Shown here: piece by piece, positions 12,636-26,055 of the stretch
Position numbering within the stretch: the stretch's first letter is position 1
Layout of the letters: each line of letters opens with the position of its first letter
Assembly (NCBI RefSeq): GCF_000420725.1
Contig: NZ_ATVM01000008.1
Location: 1-64,000 of the forward strand
DNA length: 64,000 nucleotides
Reading direction: 5' to 3'
Source: Marinococcus halotolerans DSM 16375
GTDB lineage: Bacteria; Bacillota; Bacilli; Bacillales; Marinococcaceae
The notes under the pieces: generated by a model
Seen by the model: the letters and a program-made list of their open reading frames with translations, nothing else
Databases searched by the model: none
What the model was told of the DNA's origin: nothing
Made by a program: the position numbers and the translations under genes

Positions 12636-13664
12636 TCATTGAACAGGCTCCTGCAGAGTCATTTTGTTTTCGGCTGTAGTCTGCCGTACTTTTATTTCCG
12701 GAGTCAAAATAATCGTTCTGCTTGATTGTTTTTTTCCTTTAATCTGGTCTACAAGCGTCTGGGTAACAATTTCTCCCATTTCCACAATTGGCTGGGAGAT
12801 CGTAGTCAGTGGCGGATGGCTTAAAACAGCAATGAACGTATCATCAAATCCTACTACAGAAAAGGTTTCCGGCACGCTTTTTCCGATTCCTCTCGCCCCC
12901 TGGATGCTTCCTATCGCCAGAAAATCTGTAAGAGCAAATGCCGCACTGACATTAATGTCTTTTCGCAGCGCTTCCATTACAGCCTGTTCTGCCTGCTGGG
13001 TAGTCATCAGCTCTTCGATAATTTTAACATTCTTTTTAGGGATTCCCGCCTCTTCAAATTTTGCATAAAATCCTCTCAAACGGTTCTGTTCGCTTGAATT
13101 ATCTAAATCGCCAACCAGCAGCAGTACTTTTTGGTGCTTTAAACCAAGCAGATGCTGGGCAGCCAGGTAGCCTCCCCGAAAATCATCCACCAGTACAGTG
13201 CTGACAGCAAGGGTCGGAATGTCACGGGAGACCAGCACTACAGGGATGTCTTGGTTCATAAATTCCTTTAGGGCTTCCATATTATGCATACCGGTGCCAA
13301 GAACCACTCCATCCACCTTTTTTTGGTTAAGCCACCACAAATACTGGACTTCCTTTTCCGGATCGTTATCTGTGTTGCATATAACTACGCTGTATCCATT
13401 TGCGTGTCCGGTGTCTTCTACACTTCTTGCAAGCTCCGCGAAAAAAGGGTTTGCAATGTCAGGGATCACCAGCCCGATGGTATGCGTGTGCTTGCCTGTG
13501 AGCGCGGAGGCTACCATGCTCGGATGATACCCTACTTCTTCTATAATCTTTAGTATTCGTTTTTTTGTTTTCTGTCCGACGTCGGCTTTGTCATTGATGA
13601 CTTTTGACACTGTAGCAATCGAAACTCCTGCCCGTTCTGCCACATCGTAGATGGTTGGTTTCAT
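12636..13664 (-). CDS. LacI/GalR-family repressor of the sugar cluster
   Basis: This 342-aa protein has the canonical LacI head TIYDVAERAGVSIATVSKVI (residues 3-22), the hinge segment and a periplasmic-binding-like core (TIGLVIPDIANPFFAELA). The last gene before it in the same direction is a sugar porter. The start at 13664 follows GAGGAG at ideal spacing; upstream in-frame Met codons would add an unneeded basic tail. It likely represses the adjacent dehydrogenase/isomerase genes. Two AAGCGCTT palindromes (18671-18694 and about 19743-19758) fit the operator shape of LacI proteins, although CcpA, also a LacI relative, reads similar sites. Confidence 0.9.
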   Translation of the reverse strand: MKPTIYDVAERAGVSIATVSKVINDKADVGQKTKKRILKIIEEVGYHPSMVASALTGKHTHTIGLVIPDIANPFFAELARSVEDTGHANGYSVVICNTDNDPEKEVQYLWWLNQKKVDGVVLGTGMHNMEALKEFMNQDIPVVLVSRDIPTLAVSTVLVDDFRGGYLAAQHLLGLKHQKVLLLVGDLDNSSEQNRLRGFYAKFEEAGIPKKNVKIIEELMTTQQAEQAVMEALRKDINVSAAFALTDFLAIGSIQGARGIGKSVPETFSVVGFDDTFIAVLSHPPLTTISQPIVEMGEIVTQTLVDQIKGKKQSSRTIILTPEIKVRQTTAENKMTLQEPVQ

Positions 13665-13821
13665 TTTTCTCCTCTTTCTTTTCCTTATTGACTTCCCTCT
13701 TTCCTTCATCATTTATACTTATTGACGGTTAATTATAAACAAATAAATGCGGTATATTCAATTACCTGCGTTTTATTCACGACCTGCCTCCAAGCTTTTT
13801 CCGGCAGTGTTTTTCAGTTGC

Positions 13822-13909: not shown

Positions 13910-15349
13910 TCAAGAAGACTTGGCCTGTTTATCTGCTTTATCCTGATCGCTTTTAGATTTTTTATCAAACCAGATCTGCTCGATTTCTTCGAGCGATTTA
14001 TTTTTTGTTTCAGGCACGAATTTCCATATAAAGAAAAAGGCGAATGTGCTGACAGCACCGTAAATCATAAACGAACCGACACCAAAGGCTGCATTTAGCG
14101 GCGGAAAGGTAGCTGAAGCTGTCAGGTTAGCACCCCAGAGGAGTGTCACAGCTAAAGACATAGCCTGTCCTCTGATTTTGTTTGGAAATATTTCTGAAAG
14201 CATTACCCAGGTAACAGCGCCCCAGGTCATTTGGAAAAACGCCACAAATCCTAGAATGAATATGAGTGTCGCCACGCCGTAGATGCCTGTAAAAAACAGG
14301 GTCGCTACAGTAAACAAACAAATCGCACATCCTGCAGACCCCAGCAGAAGCAGGAATTTCCTTCCGCTTCTGTCAATCAGGCGAATAGCAATTAAGGAAA
14401 CAACGACGCCGATAGCCCCTACTAATATAGTTTGCAGCATCGAAGCAGACTGTCCAGCACCGAGGCTTTCAAAAATACGCGGAGCATAATAAAGAATAAT
14501 ATTGATCCCGATAAACTGCTGCAAAACGGCAATGGTAAAGCCTACAACCAGAACTAGTTTTCCGTAGTAAAACAGATTAACCTTCTGGGTTTTGGTGTTG
14601 AGTGACTCTTGGATGCTTGAAAGTGTACGGCTTGCGGCCTCCTTGGATCCCTGTAATTTTTCCAGGACGTTATATGCCTGGGTATCTGCATTTTTAAGAG
14701 CCAGGTACCTTGGCGTTTCCGGTATAAATAGTAACAGGAAGAAAAACAGCGCTGCCGGCACGAGCTCTGAGGCGAACATCAGTCTCCAGCCAGTGTCATC
14801 AACCCATGCACTTGACTGTCCCCGCACGATCCACCAGTTGACGATGTAAACTACAGTCTGCCCGAAAACGACGGCCATGTTGTAGAGTACCACAAGCTTT
14901 CCCCGAATGTGCTGAGGACTCATTTCACTGATGTATACCGGCGCGATCGCCGAGGCAAGGCCTACACCAATACCACCGAGAATACGGTACAGGTTAAATG
15001 TAATTAACAAAGATAATGTCGGTTCGCCCCGGGTGAAAAAGAACAGCTCCGGATAAGCAGAACCCAGGGCTGACAAAGCAAATAAAGTCGCGGCAATAAT
15101 CAGAGTGTTCCGCCGGCCGATACTGTTCGCTATTATGCCTGATATCAAAGCCCCGATTATACAACCGGCAAGAGCACTTGAGACGGTCAAGCCGTGGACC
15201 AGCGACCCCAGCCCTAAGCTGTCCACCAGATACAGCTGCACTGATTGTTCCGCTCCGGCAATAACTGCTGTATCGTACCCAAAAAGCAGTCCCCCCAATG
15301 AAGCGACAAGCGCTACTGAAACAATATAAAATCTTTGGCTGTTTTTCAT
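13910..15349 (-). CDS. MFS sugar porter (XylE/IolT type)
   Basis: This 479-aa, 12-helix protein has all sugar-porter signatures: FGYDTAVIAGAE after TM1, GRRNTLI in the loop after TM2, PVYISEMSPQHIRGKLV (the PESPR/RGxxv block), FIPETPRYL before the central loop, GINIILYYAPRIF in TM7 and FVPETKNKSLEEIE at the end. It is a proton symporter for a sugar or polyol. Position downstream of the IolI-like isomerase and dehydrogenases suggests import of their substrate. Its only good Shine-Dalgarno (AGGAGG, 15384-15389) lies 34 nt from the ATG, with a 7-bp hairpin between; see findings. Confidence 0.9.
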   Translation of the reverse strand: MKNSQRFYIVSVALVASLGGLLFGYDTAVIAGAEQSVQLYLVDSLGLGSLVHGLTVSSALAGCIIGALISGIIANSIGRRNTLIIAATLFALSALGSAYPELFFFTRGEPTLSLLITFNLYRILGGIGVGLASAIAPVYISEMSPQHIRGKLVVLYNMAVVFGQTVVYIVNWWIVRGQSSAWVDDTGWRLMFASELVPAALFFFLLLFIPETPRYLALKNADTQAYNVLEKLQGSKEAASRTLSSIQESLNTKTQKVNLFYYGKLVLVVGFTIAVLQQFIGINIILYYAPRIFESLGAGQSASMLQTILVGAIGVVVSLIAIRLIDRSGRKFLLLLGSAGCAICLFTVATLFFTGIYGVATLIFILGFVAFFQMTWGAVTWVMLSEIFPNKIRGQAMSLAVTLLWGANLTASATFPPLNAAFGVGSFMIYGAVSTFAFFFIWKFVPETKNKSLEEIEQIWFDKKSKSDQDKADKQAKSS

Positions 15350-15512
15350 TTGAATGTAAGAAGGGAAAGGCGCTCCCTTCCTTCCTCCTTTCTTTCCTTA
15401 AAGGAAATAGGCTCCCTATGAGTCTCCGTTTTCGTAGTTTCGAGAAAGAAGTTTATTCACTGTCAGCTTTTTACTGACTGATGAAAAGTCATTTGTAAGA
15501 ATTATCTGACCT

Positions 15513-16340
15513 TTACGCAAACATTTTATCCAATGCCTCTTTGACATACCGGTAAGACTGCTCTCCTAAGTCGTATTTCTCCATTTCCCAGTAGTCGGGC
15601 CGGAAGAGCTCCAGACCGACCATACGTATTTGTCCCGTTTTTTGCACTCTTTCTCCGATTTCCTTTAAAGGAATGACTCCAAGCCCCGGAAAGATACGGT
15701 CTTTATCTTCTAGCTCTTCTATTCGTGCGTGTTCTGCATCATTAATATGGAACACAAATATTTTTTCTGAAGGCGTGTCATCGATAGCGTCCAGAAACGA
15801 GCCGCCGGTGTAAAAGTGAAAAACGTCTAAAACGAGACCGACATTTTCACGGTTAACCTCATCCATAATCTTTCTCGCAGCTTCAAGGGTTTTCACCGAA
15901 AAATCCTGGATGCCTATAAATTCGAGTGCAATGTTCACCTGATATTTTTCTGCAATGTCGCTCATTTCCTGAAGCATCTGCACGCTGTCTTTGACGATCT
16001 TTTCATCTGACACGTCCGGCGGCCTCGGGCTCGGCACAGCAATAACATAGGAGGAACCAGCTGCATGGGCGATTTGGCACCATTTTTCTGTATCTTTTAA
16101 TACCTGCTCCCGCTCCTCTCCCTGCTTCAGGTTGAAGAATTCGATGGCGTTGATGGCATCTGCCTTGACGGAACTCCGCTCGAACAGCTTAGTCAGATCT
16201 TCGAGCGTATGCTTCTTCAAAAAGGCTTCAAGCTTATACGTCCTAAGCTCCACTACATCATAGCCTGCATGCTCGGCTACGAGAATATCTTCTTCTAATG
16301 TGCATTGATCCGTTGTAGAGCCGTTTAATCCATACAGCAT
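15513..16340 (-). CDS. iolI: Sugar isomerase/epimerase, IolI-like TIM barrel
   Basis: This 275-aa protein matches the length and layout of 2-keto-myo-inositol isomerase (IolI, 278 aa) and the wider xylose-isomerase-like TIM-barrel family. The four metal ligands are visible in order: Glu in NIALEFIG, Asp in VLDVFHFY, His in VFHINDAE and Glu in GLELFRPDYW. It follows a dehydrogenase by 20 bp and precedes the sugar porter. It would interconvert keto-inositols or keto-sugars made by the adjacent dehydrogenases. Close relatives of this fold act in 3-keto-glycoside and anhydro-sugar pathways, so the inositol label is tentative. Confidence 0.75.
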   Translation of the reverse strand: MLYGLNGSTTDQCTLEEDILVAEHAGYDVVELRTYKLEAFLKKHTLEDLTKLFERSSVKADAINAIEFFNLKQGEEREQVLKDTEKWCQIAHAAGSSYVIAVPSPRPPDVSDEKIVKDSVQMLQEMSDIAEKYQVNIALEFIGIQDFSVKTLEAARKIMDEVNRENVGLVLDVFHFYTGGSFLDAIDDTPSEKIFVFHINDAEHARIEELEDKDRIFPGLGVIPLKEIGERVQKTGQIRMVGLELFRPDYWEMEKYDLGEQSYRYVKEALDKMFA

Positions 16341-16360
16341 TGTTTTCCCCCTTTTACCTT

Positions 16361-17401
16361 TTACAGTACATATACCTTATCCTGGTACAGCTCCTGCATA
16401 TTGATCCGCTCCCCGTTATTCATATAGGAACGGGTGGCTGCGAGCGCTACCTGCATGTTGATTTTCGAATCCACTGATGTCACCCGCGGGCTTTCTTCGC
16501 CTTTAACACATTTGATAAATTGTTCAAGCTCCTGCACATACGCTTCACGAAACCTCATCTGGAAATTCGGCACAATTTCATGATTGCTCCCTGTGCTGCT
16601 TTGAACCGTGACGTCGCTGTTACGCAGGGAACCGACAAAAATGGCTCCTTCTGTTCCAATTATTTCGGCCCGGATGTCATGACCGTACGGGGAGTTCCGG
16701 CTTGCTTCCACATCGCCCGCCCCGCCGTTTTCAAACTCCAGGTACGTAATGGCCTGGTCGACATCGTTGTATTCTTCCATGAATGGATTCATCAAAATCC
16801 GTCCGTGTCCGGAAACCGAGGAGATTTCCGAGCTCATTAAATACCGTGCGATATCATAATCGTGAATCGAGCAGTCCAGAAAGATACCGCCGCTGTTTTT
16901 AATAAAGGAGGCCGGCGGAGAACCGCTGTCGCGGGTGAAGCCTTTAAAATAAATCGGTTTGCCGATTTCACCGGCATCGATACGCTGTTTGGCATCAAAG
17001 TATCCCGGGTCGTAACGGCGCATAAAGCCAACCTGGCAGATGACGTCCGCTTTTTTTACCGCTTCAATGACTTCATCTGCTTCTTCTATCGTGGACGTGA
17101 GCGGTTTTTCCACAAATATCTGCTTGCCGTGCGCTGCTGCCTGCTTGATCATATCTGCATGCGTGCTCGTCGGGGTAACGATGACTACTGCATCAATGTC
17201 CGGGTTCTCGAACACTTCCTCCGGATCCGCGGTCCACGCCGGCACCCCAAGCTGATCGGCAGCCCTTTCTGCATGCTCGACGATGGGGTCGCAAATCAGC
17301 GTGAGCTCTGCACCCTTTACTTTATTCATCATGTTGCTTGCGTGAAACATCCCCAGTCTTCCAAGACCTAACACTGCTACTCGTATATCCTGCTGTGCCA
17401 T
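16361..17401 (-). CDS. iolG: Inositol 2-dehydrogenase-like oxidoreductase (Gfo/Idh/MocA)
   Basis: This 346-aa protein has the NAD-binding start VAVLGLGRLGMFHASNM (about residues 8-24), the catalytic FVEKPLTSTIEEAD block with the essential Lys, RRYDPGYF, and GGIFLDCSIHDYDIARYL with the Asp/His catalytic pair. These fit IolG and IolX-type inositol dehydrogenases. The ATG at 17401 is preceded by AAAGGAGGAC; an earlier Met lies within the upstream gene's ribosome region and is rejected. It is 13 bp after the upstream dehydrogenase, so the two are cotranscribed. The substrate may be myo- or scyllo-inositol or another cyclic polyol. Confidence 0.75.
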   Translation of the reverse strand: MAQQDIRVAVLGLGRLGMFHASNMMNKVKGAELTLICDPIVEHAERAADQLGVPAWTADPEEVFENPDIDAVVIVTPTSTHADMIKQAAAHGKQIFVEKPLTSTIEEADEVIEAVKKADVICQVGFMRRYDPGYFDAKQRIDAGEIGKPIYFKGFTRDSGSPPASFIKNSGGIFLDCSIHDYDIARYLMSSEISSVSGHGRILMNPFMEEYNDVDQAITYLEFENGGAGDVEASRNSPYGHDIRAEIIGTEGAIFVGSLRNSDVTVQSSTGSNHEIVPNFQMRFREAYVQELEQFIKCVKGEESPRVTSVDSKINMQVALAATRSYMNNGERINMQELYQDKVYVL

Positions 17402-17414
17402 GACACGTCCTCCT

Positions 17415-18611
17415 TTAGTTAATTTCAACACTTTCTGGTTTATAAATGTCAGAAACGGCTGTCCACCCGCGTTTGTTTACGGAACGCTCGACGGCCTCCA
17501 GGATTGCCTGATTCCTCACCCCGTCTTCAAAGTTCGGTGCTGCACTCGTTTGATCCCCAATATTGTCCATCAGAGAAGCAATCAAATTGACGAAGGTGTG
17601 CTCGTATCCGAGGATATGGGCTGCCGGCCAATAATTCCCGGCAAAAGGGTGCTCTGCTTCCGTACAGTTGATGGTTTTGAATCCCTGGATCCCGGCTTCG
17701 TCTTCTTCAAAGTAAACTTCTAAATTGTTCATGTTTTCCATATCCCAGCGGACGGATCCTTTTTCTCCATTGATCTCAAAACGGTTGCCCGCACGGTTGC
17801 CACGGCTGAACCGGGAGGCTTCAAATGTGCCCATCGCCCCGTTTTCGAAGGTGGCAAGAAAAGCGGAGGCGTCATCTACCGTCACTTCGCCCCACTCGCC
17901 TTCACGAATCTCTGTCTGGAGATTGTGCACGGTATCACCAAGTGGCCGCTCTTTAACAAAGGTCTTCATCATCCCCGCTACTTCGTCAAACTCACCAACC
18001 AGAAATCTGGCGAGATCAATGATATGGGCGCCCAGATCGCCAAGCGTGCCCGATCCTGAAATATTTTTCTGCATGCGCCAGGTAAGCGGATAATTCGGAT
18101 CCATCAGCCAATCCTGCAGAAACGTGGCCCGGATGTGATAAATACGCCCCAGTTTTCCACTGTCAATCAGCTGTTTGGCAAACTGTACTGCCGGGGCAAA
18201 CCGGTAATTGTGGCAGAGCATATGAGTAACATTGTTTTTCTTCACAGCATCACGCATCCGGACTGCTTCCTCCACCGATAATGCCAGTGGCTTTTCGCAC
18301 AGCACGTGCTTACCGGCTTCTGCTGCTGCAATCGCAATCTCACTGTGGGTATCATTGGGGGTTACTATATCAACTAAATCAATATCGCTGCGGTTAATAA
18401 GGGAACGCCAGTCTGTGGCATGACGAGCCCAGCCCATCTTTTCAGCGGCCGGCCCAACCCGCGAAGAGTCCCTTCCGACGATCGTATCGAGTCTGGGCGT
18501 TACCGGACTGTCAAAATAAAAGGGAACGTCGCGGTACGCATGGCTGTGGGCTCTTCCCATCATTTTATAGCCCACCATTCCAACATTAATCGTTTTCTTT
18601 TCTTCACCCAC
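17415..18611 (-). CDS. Gfo/Idh/MocA dehydrogenase resembling levoglucosan dehydrogenase
   Basis: This 398-aa protein begins VGMVGYKMMGRAHSHAYRDV, the N-terminal NAD motif of Gfo/Idh/MocA enzymes in a variant with an added Ala-His. It has HVLCEKPLALSVEEAV (catalytic Lys), FLQDWLMDPNYPLTWRMQK and GTLGDLGAHIIDLARFLVG (Asp/His). From memory, the QDW-x-x-D-P-N-x-P-L-(S/T)-W-R block and the ~390-aa length closely follow levoglucosan dehydrogenase LgdA, an enzyme that makes 3-keto-levoglucosan. This was not aligned. A perfect 24-bp palindrome lies 60 bp upstream of the start. It is the first gene after that operator and leads the dehydrogenase/isomerase/porter series. Confidence 0.75.
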   Translation of the reverse strand: MGEEKKTINVGMVGYKMMGRAHSHAYRDVPFYFDSPVTPRLDTIVGRDSSRVGPAAEKMGWARHATDWRSLINRSDIDLVDIVTPNDTHSEIAIAAAEAGKHVLCEKPLALSVEEAVRMRDAVKKNNVTHMLCHNYRFAPAVQFAKQLIDSGKLGRIYHIRATFLQDWLMDPNYPLTWRMQKNISGSGTLGDLGAHIIDLARFLVGEFDEVAGMMKTFVKERPLGDTVHNLQTEIREGEWGEVTVDDASAFLATFENGAMGTFEASRFSRGNRAGNRFEINGEKGSVRWDMENMNNLEVYFEEDEAGIQGFKTINCTEAEHPFAGNYWPAAHILGYEHTFVNLIASLMDNIGDQTSAAPNFEDGVRNQAILEAVERSVNKRGWTAVSDIYKPESVEIN

Positions 18612-18670
18612 TGTTTCTCCACCTCCATGTATTCTCTCTTTTCGGGGATTGTTTGTGCTTATCTTTTAGC

Positions 18671-18694
18671 ATTTACTTAAGCGCTTAAGTAAAT
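18671..18694. promoter_or_regulatory. Perfect 24-bp operator palindrome
   Basis: ATTTACTTAAGC and its exact complement meet at 18682/18683, centred on GCGC. LacI-family operators have this even symmetry with a central CG. It lies between the third dehydrogenase and the LgdA-like gene, so it could give internal control of the operon. A cre site for CcpA is the alternative reading. Confidence 0.75.
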
Positions 18695-18705
18695 TGCTAA
18701 AAATT

Positions 18706-19722
18706 TTATGTTTCCTTTAATGCTTTTACGCGGCTTGCAAAATCTATTTCTTCGCCTGTTCTTGCGCTTTCATAAATAGCATTTATGAGCATTGTTAACT
18801 GATAAGCATCATCTACATCCACCGGCGGGTCCGTGTTATTAATCAGCGCGTCGATGAATAGTCTGTCTTCTTCGATATAGCCGCCCTTTTCATAAAATGG
18901 GACCTGCGTGTAATCCTCAGCTATCATCTGCTGCTCCAGTCCGGGTGACAAACGAACTGTTTCAAGCTCTGCTGTTGTGGCTGTAGAATATTTCCCGTAA
19001 ATTTCGATCGTTTCAAACGGGAAGCTCCAGCCGGAATGAGCGGAGGAAATAAGCGTAGCAATACCGCCATTTTCAAATGTTACCAGCACTGCGAAATCAT
19101 CAAATTCATTATCAGAAATGTTTTGTCTGGCTTCACACCGTATGGTTTTCACCGGGCCGAAAAAGTAAGGAAGCAGATCGATTTGATGAATGGTCGTTTC
19201 ATACAGGAATCCACCTGTTTTATTCGAGTCTGCTGTCCATGCAGGCTTCAGAAGTTCTCCGCGGTTGAGCTTGAACTGGCCGAGATGGGGGTTGAGTGCT
19301 CCTTCCTCAATCCATTCCTTTACTTTTTTGTGCGTATTTGCGTACCGGCGGTTCATGCCTAAATTATAAACACCTTGTGATCCTTTAGCTGCTGTCCGGA
19401 TCCCTTCAGCACCCTCCTCGGTTACAGCCATCGGTTTTTCACTGAATACATTCAGGTCTGCTTCCAGGCATTTAACAACAGGCTCTACATGCGTGGTATT
19501 CGGCGTGGTAACGTATACAGTATCAACACCTAAGGCAATCAGTTCCTCCAGAGTTTCCACAGCCTGCACATTTCCTTCCAGGGATTCCGCTAATTTTCTG
19601 GCATTATCCAACACAATGTCAGCAACTCCTGTAATCTCCACCCGCTCATCTTCCTGCAGAATAGAGCCATGTACAGAAGCAATGAAACCTGAGCCCAAAA
19701 AACCCACTTTGACCTTTTGCAT
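18706..19722 (-). CDS. Gfo/Idh/MocA-family oxidoreductase
   Basis: This 338-aa protein has the NAD motif VGFLGSGFIASVHGSIL (about residues 5-21), NVFSEKPMAVTEEGAE with the catalytic Lys, NRRYANTHKKVKEW and GGFLYETTIHQIDLLPYFFG with the His. It is the third paralogue in the cluster and the promoter-proximal gene. A promoter (TTTACA, 17 bp, TACAAT) and an AAGCGCTT operator lie just upstream. Its partner step is unknown. In keto-sugar pathways one dehydrogenase oxidises the sugar and another reduces the product, so this could be the reducing enzyme. Confidence 0.75.
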   Translation of the reverse strand: MQKVKVGFLGSGFIASVHGSILQEDERVEITGVADIVLDNARKLAESLEGNVQAVETLEELIALGVDTVYVTTPNTTHVEPVVKCLEADLNVFSEKPMAVTEEGAEGIRTAAKGSQGVYNLGMNRRYANTHKKVKEWIEEGALNPHLGQFKLNRGELLKPAWTADSNKTGGFLYETTIHQIDLLPYFFGPVKTIRCEARQNISDNEFDDFAVLVTFENGGIATLISSAHSGWSFPFETIEIYGKYSTATTAELETVRLSPGLEQQMIAEDYTQVPFYEKGGYIEEDRLFIDALINNTDPPVDVDDAYQLTMLINAIYESARTGEEIDFASRVKALKET

Positions 19723-19742
19723 ATGTTAACCTCCCAAAAATA

Positions 19743-19758
19743 GAGTAAGCGCTTTCGT
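19743..19758. promoter_or_regulatory. Second AAGCGCTT operator (LacI or cre site)
   Basis: GAGTAAGCGCTTTCGT is an imperfect palindrome centred at 19750/19751 with the same AAGCGCTT core as the 18671 site. It lies downstream of the -10 box of the first gene, a position where a bound repressor would block elongation or initiation. It also fits a CcpA cre consensus at most positions. Confidence 0.65.
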
Positions 19759-19769
19759 AATATAAACTT

Positions 19770-19798
19770 ATTGTAATTAATTCAATTCTTTATGTAAA
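19770..19798 (-). promoter_or_regulatory. SigA-type promoter of the dehydrogenase cluster
   Basis: On the minus strand TTTACA (19793-19798) and TACAAT (19770-19775) are exactly 17 bp apart. Transcription would start about 15-20 bp before the AAGCGCTT operator. Confidence 0.65.
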
Positions 19799-25068: not shown

Positions 25069-26055
25069 TTATTCTTTAATTGGAAGCGGTGCTTCGGGGG
25101 AAACCAGTTTTTCATTACGCAGCTCCTGCCAGAAGGCTGCAGGAATATCGGCGTTTAATGCTTCGAGGTTGTCCTGAATACGCTGCGGACGACTCGCTCC
25201 CGGTATGACAGCTGCCACTGCGGGATGAGCGGCTGAAAATTGCAGGGATGCTGCAATCAGACTCACATTATGACGATCGGCAATGGATTTCATCTGCTCA
25301 ACGCGGGAAGCAATTTCCGGCGGGATATCCGAGTATTCGTACGTCGAGCCGCCGGCGAGTACACCTGAGCCAAACGGTGCACCGACAATAATGCTCACAT
25401 CCTGAGTCTCCGCTGCCGGCATTAAGCGCTGCAGAGCATGTTCATGGTTCAGCAGCGTGTAACGGGTTGCCTGCAGGCTGATATCCGGGTTGGAATTTTC
25501 AAGATCGAGAGCCAGCTCTATCGGCTCCGTCCGGTTCACTCCAATGCCCCAGGATTGAATGACGCCCTCATCCCGGAGTTTCGTCAGTTCACGGAAGGCA
25601 CCTGTTCTTGCCTCTTCAAACTTGGCGAGCCATTCGTCTCCCTTAAAATCCGGAGAGATGTCATGCACATTCACAAAGTCGATCCGGTCCATCTGCAGGC
25701 GCTCCAGGCTCTGCTCGATCGACCGGCGCGTGCCTTCTGCAGTATAATCCTCAATCACTTTATTTTTACGGCCGTGGGCAAACAATCCCTCTTTTTCTTC
25801 CGTTTCTTCGGAAATATAACGGCCAACTTTCGTACTTAATACAAAATCGTCGCGATTATGCCTGGCGAGCGCTTTCCCCAGCCGCTGTTCTGCAAGACCT
25901 GCTCCGTAGAAAGGAGCGGTATCAAAATAACGAATGCCGTATTCCCACGCTGTTTCAATTGTTTTATGAGCTTCCTCTTCGGATATATCACGGTACATAT
26001 TTCCAAGTGGCGCGGTACCGAAGCCAAGCTTACCTTCCTGCTTCAAATTAATCAT
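25069..26055 (-). CDS. Aldo/keto reductase (aldose dehydrogenase-like)
   Basis: This 328-aa TIM-barrel NAD(P) enzyme shows the AKR signature: LGFGTAPLGNMYRD, YFDTAPFYGAGLAEQRLGKAL (catalytic Asp and Tyr), LSTKVGRY (Lys), VNVHDISPD (His) and the cofactor-binding AAVIPGASRPQRIQDNL at the end. The DTAPFYG pattern with a large insert after STKVGR follows the L-fucose / D-threo-aldose dehydrogenase subgroup. It likely oxidises a free sugar or related aldehyde. It is monocistronic. Confidence 0.88.
   Translation of the reverse strand: MINLKQEGKLGFGTAPLGNMYRDISEEEAHKTIETAWEYGIRYFDTAPFYGAGLAEQRLGKALARHNRDDFVLSTKVGRYISEETEEKEGLFAHGRKNKVIEDYTAEGTRRSIEQSLERLQMDRIDFVNVHDISPDFKGDEWLAKFEEARTGAFRELTKLRDEGVIQSWGIGVNRTEPIELALDLENSNPDISLQATRYTLLNHEHALQRLMPAAETQDVSIIVGAPFGSGVLAGGSTYEYSDIPPEIASRVEQMKSIADRHNVSLIAASLQFSAAHPAVAAVIPGASRPQRIQDNLEALNADIPAAFWQELRNEKLVSPEAPLPIKE

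Follow-up and report, generated by a model that had tools for sequence, protein, structure and literature searches.

A six-gene cluster of Marinococcus halotolerans DSM 16375, situated in a 64,000-nucleotide stretch of contig NZ_ATVM01000008.1 (positions 1 to 64,000; hereafter the window), most probably belongs to the known IolQ-type inositol system as a detached satellite that has a switch and an importer of its own, a reading to which we assign a probability of roughly 0.87. Judged from sequence comparisons, this module probably adds the use of D-chiro- and/or scyllo-inositol to a myo-inositol pathway. Its genes are transcribed from the minus strand in the order D1, D2, D3 (all Gfo/Idh/MocA dehydrogenases), an IolI-like isomerase, a major facilitator superfamily (MFS) porter, and a LacI-family regulator. 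An initial annotation had proposed a LacI-controlled cluster that degrades a cyclic polyol, glycoside, or anhydro-sugar by way of a keto intermediate, possibly with a new substrate. Degradation of a cyclic polyol in this manner is well supported by the iol neighborhood, the D2 tree, active-site residues, and a shared operator; the same lines largely show the kinship of the dehydrogenases with inositol dehydrogenases, which speaks against the anticipated novelty. Overall, little about the cluster is out of the ordinary: it is a side copy of an inositol gene set already known from bacteria.

All six components listed in the initial annotation were confirmed as open reading frames with Pfam matches above gathering scores (GFO_IDH_MocA three times, a xylose-isomerase-like TIM barrel, Sugar_tr, and LacI), with the amendment that the LacI gene lies at 12636–13712, beyond the interval 13910–19798 to which the cluster had been assigned. 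The reported lack of iolA–E also stands: across the 64-kb window, iolA, iolB, iolC, and iolD gave no match (E ≤ 1e-3), and the sole iolE hit was a weak one to the isomerase gene. The core enzymes IolA–E are nevertheless all encoded in the module-bearing genome. Contig C12 holds iolA, iolD, iolE, a second D1-type gene (D1′), an IolG, and a second LacI, which make up the main iol locus, and contig C14 carries iolB and iolC, both over their cut-offs. Paralogues in the window and the main locus are 59% (D1/D1′), 83% (D3/IolG), and 60% (LacI/LacI) identical. IolI is present once in the window genome, within the module, and once in a second Marinococcus genome (G001), and D2 likewise has a single match in each (E ≤ 1e-40); in the Marinococcus genomes G002–G004, neither IolI nor, at this threshold, D2 was found. 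Because the module is the only place in its genome with IolI and D2, these two appear to be what the satellite adds. An extra Gfo/Idh/MocA gene (34% identical to D3) adjoins iolB/iolC (L170:7589-8629), so the iol loci of the window genome encode at least six such proteins. This genome also carries two near-identical iolA genes (L068:12517-13968 and L170:9961-11412; 4 of 483 residues differ), with one iolA present in the 20-kb stretch examined in G001; the doubling may be a recent duplication, a rearrangement, or an assembly effect.

Gene neighborhoods in relatives connect the module to ordinary inositol operons. D1 was searched against 398 genomes of the class, 16 of which, including the window genome, matched at E ≤ 1e-70, and genes within ~13–20 kb around D1 were counted by tblastn. 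The 15 other loci contained LacI (15), D2 (11), D3 (12), IolI (14), iolD (14), and iolE (13), with iolD or iolE present in every one of them and in the Geomicrobium locus L021. A module-type MFS gene was found by tblastn in 0/15 of these same-class loci. In Geomicrobium, one 20-kb stretch harbors MFS, D1, IolI, D2, D3, iolE, iolA, iolB, iolC, and iolD, its porter being 65% identical to that of the module. The arrangement in Geomicrobium and the other relatives is that described in PMC4428132 for Geobacillus kaustophilus and its Geobacillus relatives: LacI, iolG genes, an ATP-binding cassette (ABC) importer, IolI, and iolD onward. Among known systems, the IolQ-regulated iol operons of G. kaustophilus HTA426 share with the module a LacI regulator, three Gfo/Idh/MocA dehydrogenases, IolI, a Glu172-type first dehydrogenase (GK1899), and a cre-like operator. 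They differ in that the Marinococcus module is separate from iolA–E, has an MFS porter where they have an ABC importer, and coexists with the second LacI, D1′, and IolG of the main locus. One relative's iol locus (L109, genome G251) seems degraded, with IolI and iolD present as short fragments and D2 not found. A distant search of a plasmid collection returned 14 records, none spanning 80% of the query, so the collection lacks a close plasmid-borne copy.

The module shares an operator with the main locus. A sigma-70-like promoter is followed by AAGCGCTTACTC, a GGGAGG ribosome-binding site, and D1; promoter-like sites of this type were found 8 times versus 12.0 expected in shuffles and are no proof alone. 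The 12-mer AAGCGCTTACTC has three exact copies in the 3.14-Mb genome, located before D1, before D1′, and in a convergent gap on contig C4, while its reversed control pattern has none. The C4 copy, preceded by a gene that we take from its sequence to be rlmH, is treated as chance; ~0.4 copies are expected by our own arithmetic. More broadly, 20 of 21 loci have AARCGYTT in the 300 bp preceding D1, against an expectation of 2.16 sites for these loci. AAGCGCTTACTC resembles the Bacillus subtilis IolQ site AGAAARCGCTTKCK (PMC5504672), and together with the LacI gene and its occurrence at the main iol locus this makes IolQ-type regulation from a putative LacI operator probable. Since the IolQ site is itself similar to a CcpA site, CcpA may contribute. 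A perfect palindrome in the D1–D2 gap is a probable second operator, or a hairpin. The B. subtilis iolX/IolQ system for scyllo-inositol use is alike in its LacI repressor and AARCGCTT-type site but has one dehydrogenase versus three here, and the part of PMC5504672 available describes no IolI or porter beside it.

D1 reaches no family-model cut-off. Glu replaces the catalytic Asp172 in all 17 D1 sequences, and the NAD-ribose Asp is retained in 17/17 D1 and 13/13 D3 sequences; D1 is predicted to use NAD. According to PMC9603128, GK1899, with Glu at Asp172, is an active myo-inositol dehydrogenase, and Corynebacterium glutamicum IdhA3, carrying the same change, is inactive. A published G. kaustophilus primer reads in frame as M-T-R-V-K-V-G, provided a start-codon A is added ahead of the printed letters, and is similar to the D1 start MQKVKVG; the primer itself had a match in 0/39 and 0/10 genomes searched. 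D3, whose likely start codon is preceded by AAAGGAGG, scores 354.9 bits on the IolG model TIGR04380 (cut-off 355), compared with 362.2 for the main-locus IolG. Its motif V reads YGH, a published marker for myo/scyllo rather than D-chiro enzymes.

D2 groups, as had been suspected, with the scyllo-inositol dehydrogenase (scyllo-IDH)/LgdA-type subfamily and not with plain IolG/IolX/IolW. In a tree of 46 rows, D2 shares a clade of 12 rows (support 100/99), and each of the 10 that come from other genera is from an iol locus. The 10 LgdA rows over cut-off cluster apart at ~42% identity to D2; two iol-tagged rows (L035_9704 and L102_4946) fall on a distant branch and not in the D2 clade. Residues were counted over 49 aligned rows, with the Paracoccus enzyme and 4h3v as reference rows and 11 rows omitted (L026–L029, L031–L036, and L102_4946) as belonging neither to the iol clade, to over-cut-off LgdA, nor near D2. 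The equivalents of Lys106, Tyr135, Arg178, Asp191, and His195 are conserved across all groups (iol D2, near D2, and LgdA). The swap-loop His318 position, an alignment-dependent column that comes after an indel, is His in 12/12 iol D2 and 13/13 near D2 but Leu in 11/11 LgdA. The catalytic triad, Arg178, and swap-loop His318 of the Pl-scyllo-IDH subfamily are thus all matched in D2. Compared with the scyllo-inositol dehydrogenase of Paracoccus laeviglucosivorans (5ya8), whose inositol-contacting residues, including Arg178, are given in PMC5969746, D2 has Phe and Gln in place of Tyr163 and Glu165, Gly-Arg in place of the NAD-binding acidic residue, and a match of only 200 bits. The NAD-ribose acidic residue is Asp/Glu in 11/11 LgdA and Gly-Arg in 12/12 iol D2, which, by the cofactor rule given in PMC9603128, suggests that D2 uses NADP(H). 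Proteins 52–66% identical to D2 were additionally observed at 13 loci (L022–L024, L150–L158, and L160), often beside other Gfo/Idh/MocA genes, with the His kept and Gly-Arg in 12 of 13; they form an apparently uncharacterized dehydrogenase group. In genome G155, an over-cut-off levoglucosan dehydrogenase lies ~11 kb from an iol-type D1 (L096, L148).

The best solved-structure match of the isomerase is B. subtilis IolI (1i60; 39% identity over 247 aa), with the metal-ligand motifs EFIG, DVFHF, HIND, and ELFRP. Having such an isomerase among the module genes suggests an intermediate of the D-chiro type. The porter passes TIGR00879 (371.8 bits; cut-off 237.8), misses the XylE model (567.9; cut-off 608), and matches E. 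coli XylE (4gby) with 420 bits.

Table 1. Features of the Marinococcus module, in window coordinates
Feature	Position	Strand	Remarks
D1, Gfo/Idh/MocA dehydrogenase, GK1899 (Geobacillus kaustophilus IolG) type	18706..19722	-	338 aa; Pfam GFO_IDH_MocA
D2, dehydrogenase of scyllo-IDH/LgdA subfamily, iol clade	17415..18611	-	398 aa; GTG start; NADP(H) predicted
D3, IolG-type inositol 2-dehydrogenase	16361..17401	-	corrected ATG start; listed open reading frame 16361-17431 (356 aa)
IolI-like inosose isomerase, TIM barrel	15513..16340	-	E, D, H, E ligand motifs retained
MFS sugar porter, XylE branch; probable inositol importer	13910..15349	-	Pfam Sugar_tr
LacI-family repressor, IolQ-like	12636..13712	-	paralogue of main-iol-locus LacI (60%)
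Sigma-70-like promoter TTTACA-17-TACAAT	19770..19798	-	motif scan
Operator core AAGCGCTTACTC, directly downstream of -10 box	19743..19754	-	3 genome copies
24-bp perfect palindrome ATTTACTTAAGCGCTTAAGTAAAT, D1-D2 gap, AAGCGCTT core	18671..18694	.	sequence

In the proposed route, the MFS porter would import one or more inositols, which the NAD-type D1 and D3 would oxidize to inososes, and D2 would oxidize or reduce a further isomer, such as scyllo-inositol. IolI, by analogy to the B. subtilis enzyme, would turn 1-keto-D-chiro-inositol into 2-keto-myo-inositol, a compound that would feed the main iol pathway, whose genes are observed elsewhere in the genome. The IolQ-like LacI would repress at the AAGCGCTT operators of both loci, and inositol would itself probably be what releases it, as has been reported of IolQ in G. 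kaustophilus.

Several observations weigh against this assignment, the evidence for which is comparative throughout. D1 has the Glu of the inactive C. glutamicum IdhA3 (though GK1899 is active), and its putative link to GK1899 consists of this Glu, gene order, and the printed primer. YGH argues against D3 as the D-chiro oxidizer. The 13 loci with D2-like proteins contain neither iolD nor iolE, such that the D2 signature alone is no proof of inositol as a substrate, and the porter is similar to XylE rather than to a carrier proven to transport inositol.

A levoglucosan pathway, in which D2 would form 3-keto-levoglucosan, the TIM barrel would carry out elimination or hydration, and D1 or D3 would reduce 3-keto-glucose, had been suggested by an LgdA-like block in the 398-aa enzyme. 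The block QDWLMDPNYPLTWR is indeed present but is not LgdA-specific: it aligns to EDYMADPDLPWSWR in the Paracoccus scyllo-inositol dehydrogenase, where the last Arg is the inositol-contacting Arg178. The second-best solved-structure match of D2 is a levoglucosan dehydrogenase (LGDH, 6a3f; 329 bits), the QDW..DP..PL.WR block is consistent with such an enzyme, and the lgd set likewise combines Gfo/Idh/MocA enzymes with TIM barrels (PMC7676230). However, D2 scores 400.6 bits on the LgdA model NF052479, below the cut-off of 650, sits off the LgdA clade, and has the swap-loop His and Gly-Arg cofactor motif where LgdA has Leu and Asp/Glu. The isomerase resembles IolI and is not among the best 15 hits in the comparison of IolI against LgdB1-like proteins. 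Neither LgdB1 nor an LgdC-type neighbor (385–392 aa) was found beside D2, whereas LgdB1 is near LgdA in 253 of 265 LgdA loci (PMC10066097). The Bacillus smithii lgd system (LgdA/B1/B2/C) resembles the module in its wider LgdA/scyllo-IDH subfamily and its TIM-barrel and Gfo/Idh/MocA parts but differs in clade, signature residues, and neighbors. The D2 model score, the tree, the signature residues, and the neighbor genes led to rejection of the pathway as exceedingly improbable, and there is no support for levoglucosan, any anhydro-sugar, or a new compound as the substrate.

An unlikely but more serious alternative is that the module hands a less common cyclitol, either an O-methyl-inositol such as pinitol or ononitol or a rare stereoisomer, to the iol pathway. 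Salt-tolerant plants use inositol methyl ethers as osmolytes, and Marinococcus is halophilic. A distinct locus that has its own regulation and porter, and that supplies D2 and IolI on top of an already complete myo-inositol pathway, would suit this role; yet the cluster holds no demethylase-like gene, and the same gene set occurs inside ordinary iol operons in genomes of other families. It is very improbable that the module is a duplicate, redundant or in decay, that lacks a role of its own. Such an origin would fit the similarity of D3 to the main IolG, the main-locus paralogues of LacI and D1, loss of the module in Marinococcus luteus, and the lack of IolI and D2 matches in G002–G004, but two species have all six genes intact (91–98% protein identity), the promoter, operator, and ribosome-binding sites are retained, and IolI and D2 have no second copy.

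The history of the satellite within Marinococcus is recorded at its locus in M. luteus, where the flanks are collinear and ~430 bp replace the module. The last 32 lacI codons (81% identical) and 56 bp of the D1 upstream region (51/56 identical to G001) remain at the edges of these 430 bp. This scar of lacI and D1 upstream sequence indicates a deletion and suggests that the module was lost in M. luteus; acquisition by insertion was considered and set aside, as the scar favors loss there instead. An aldo/keto reductase gene was also noted near the cluster (window 25069–26055), and the main iol locus has one beside LacI (L068:5053-5967).

D2-type proteins mimic levoglucosan dehydrogenases by motif yet belong to iol operons, and a plausible mis-annotation is thereby corrected, with two positions telling the D2 type from LgdA: the swap-loop residue (His versus Leu) and the cofactor site (Gly-Arg versus Asp/Glu). 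Marinococcus genomes that carry the module can also be set against those that lack it as a natural comparison, with the two groups expected to use different sets of inositol isomers.

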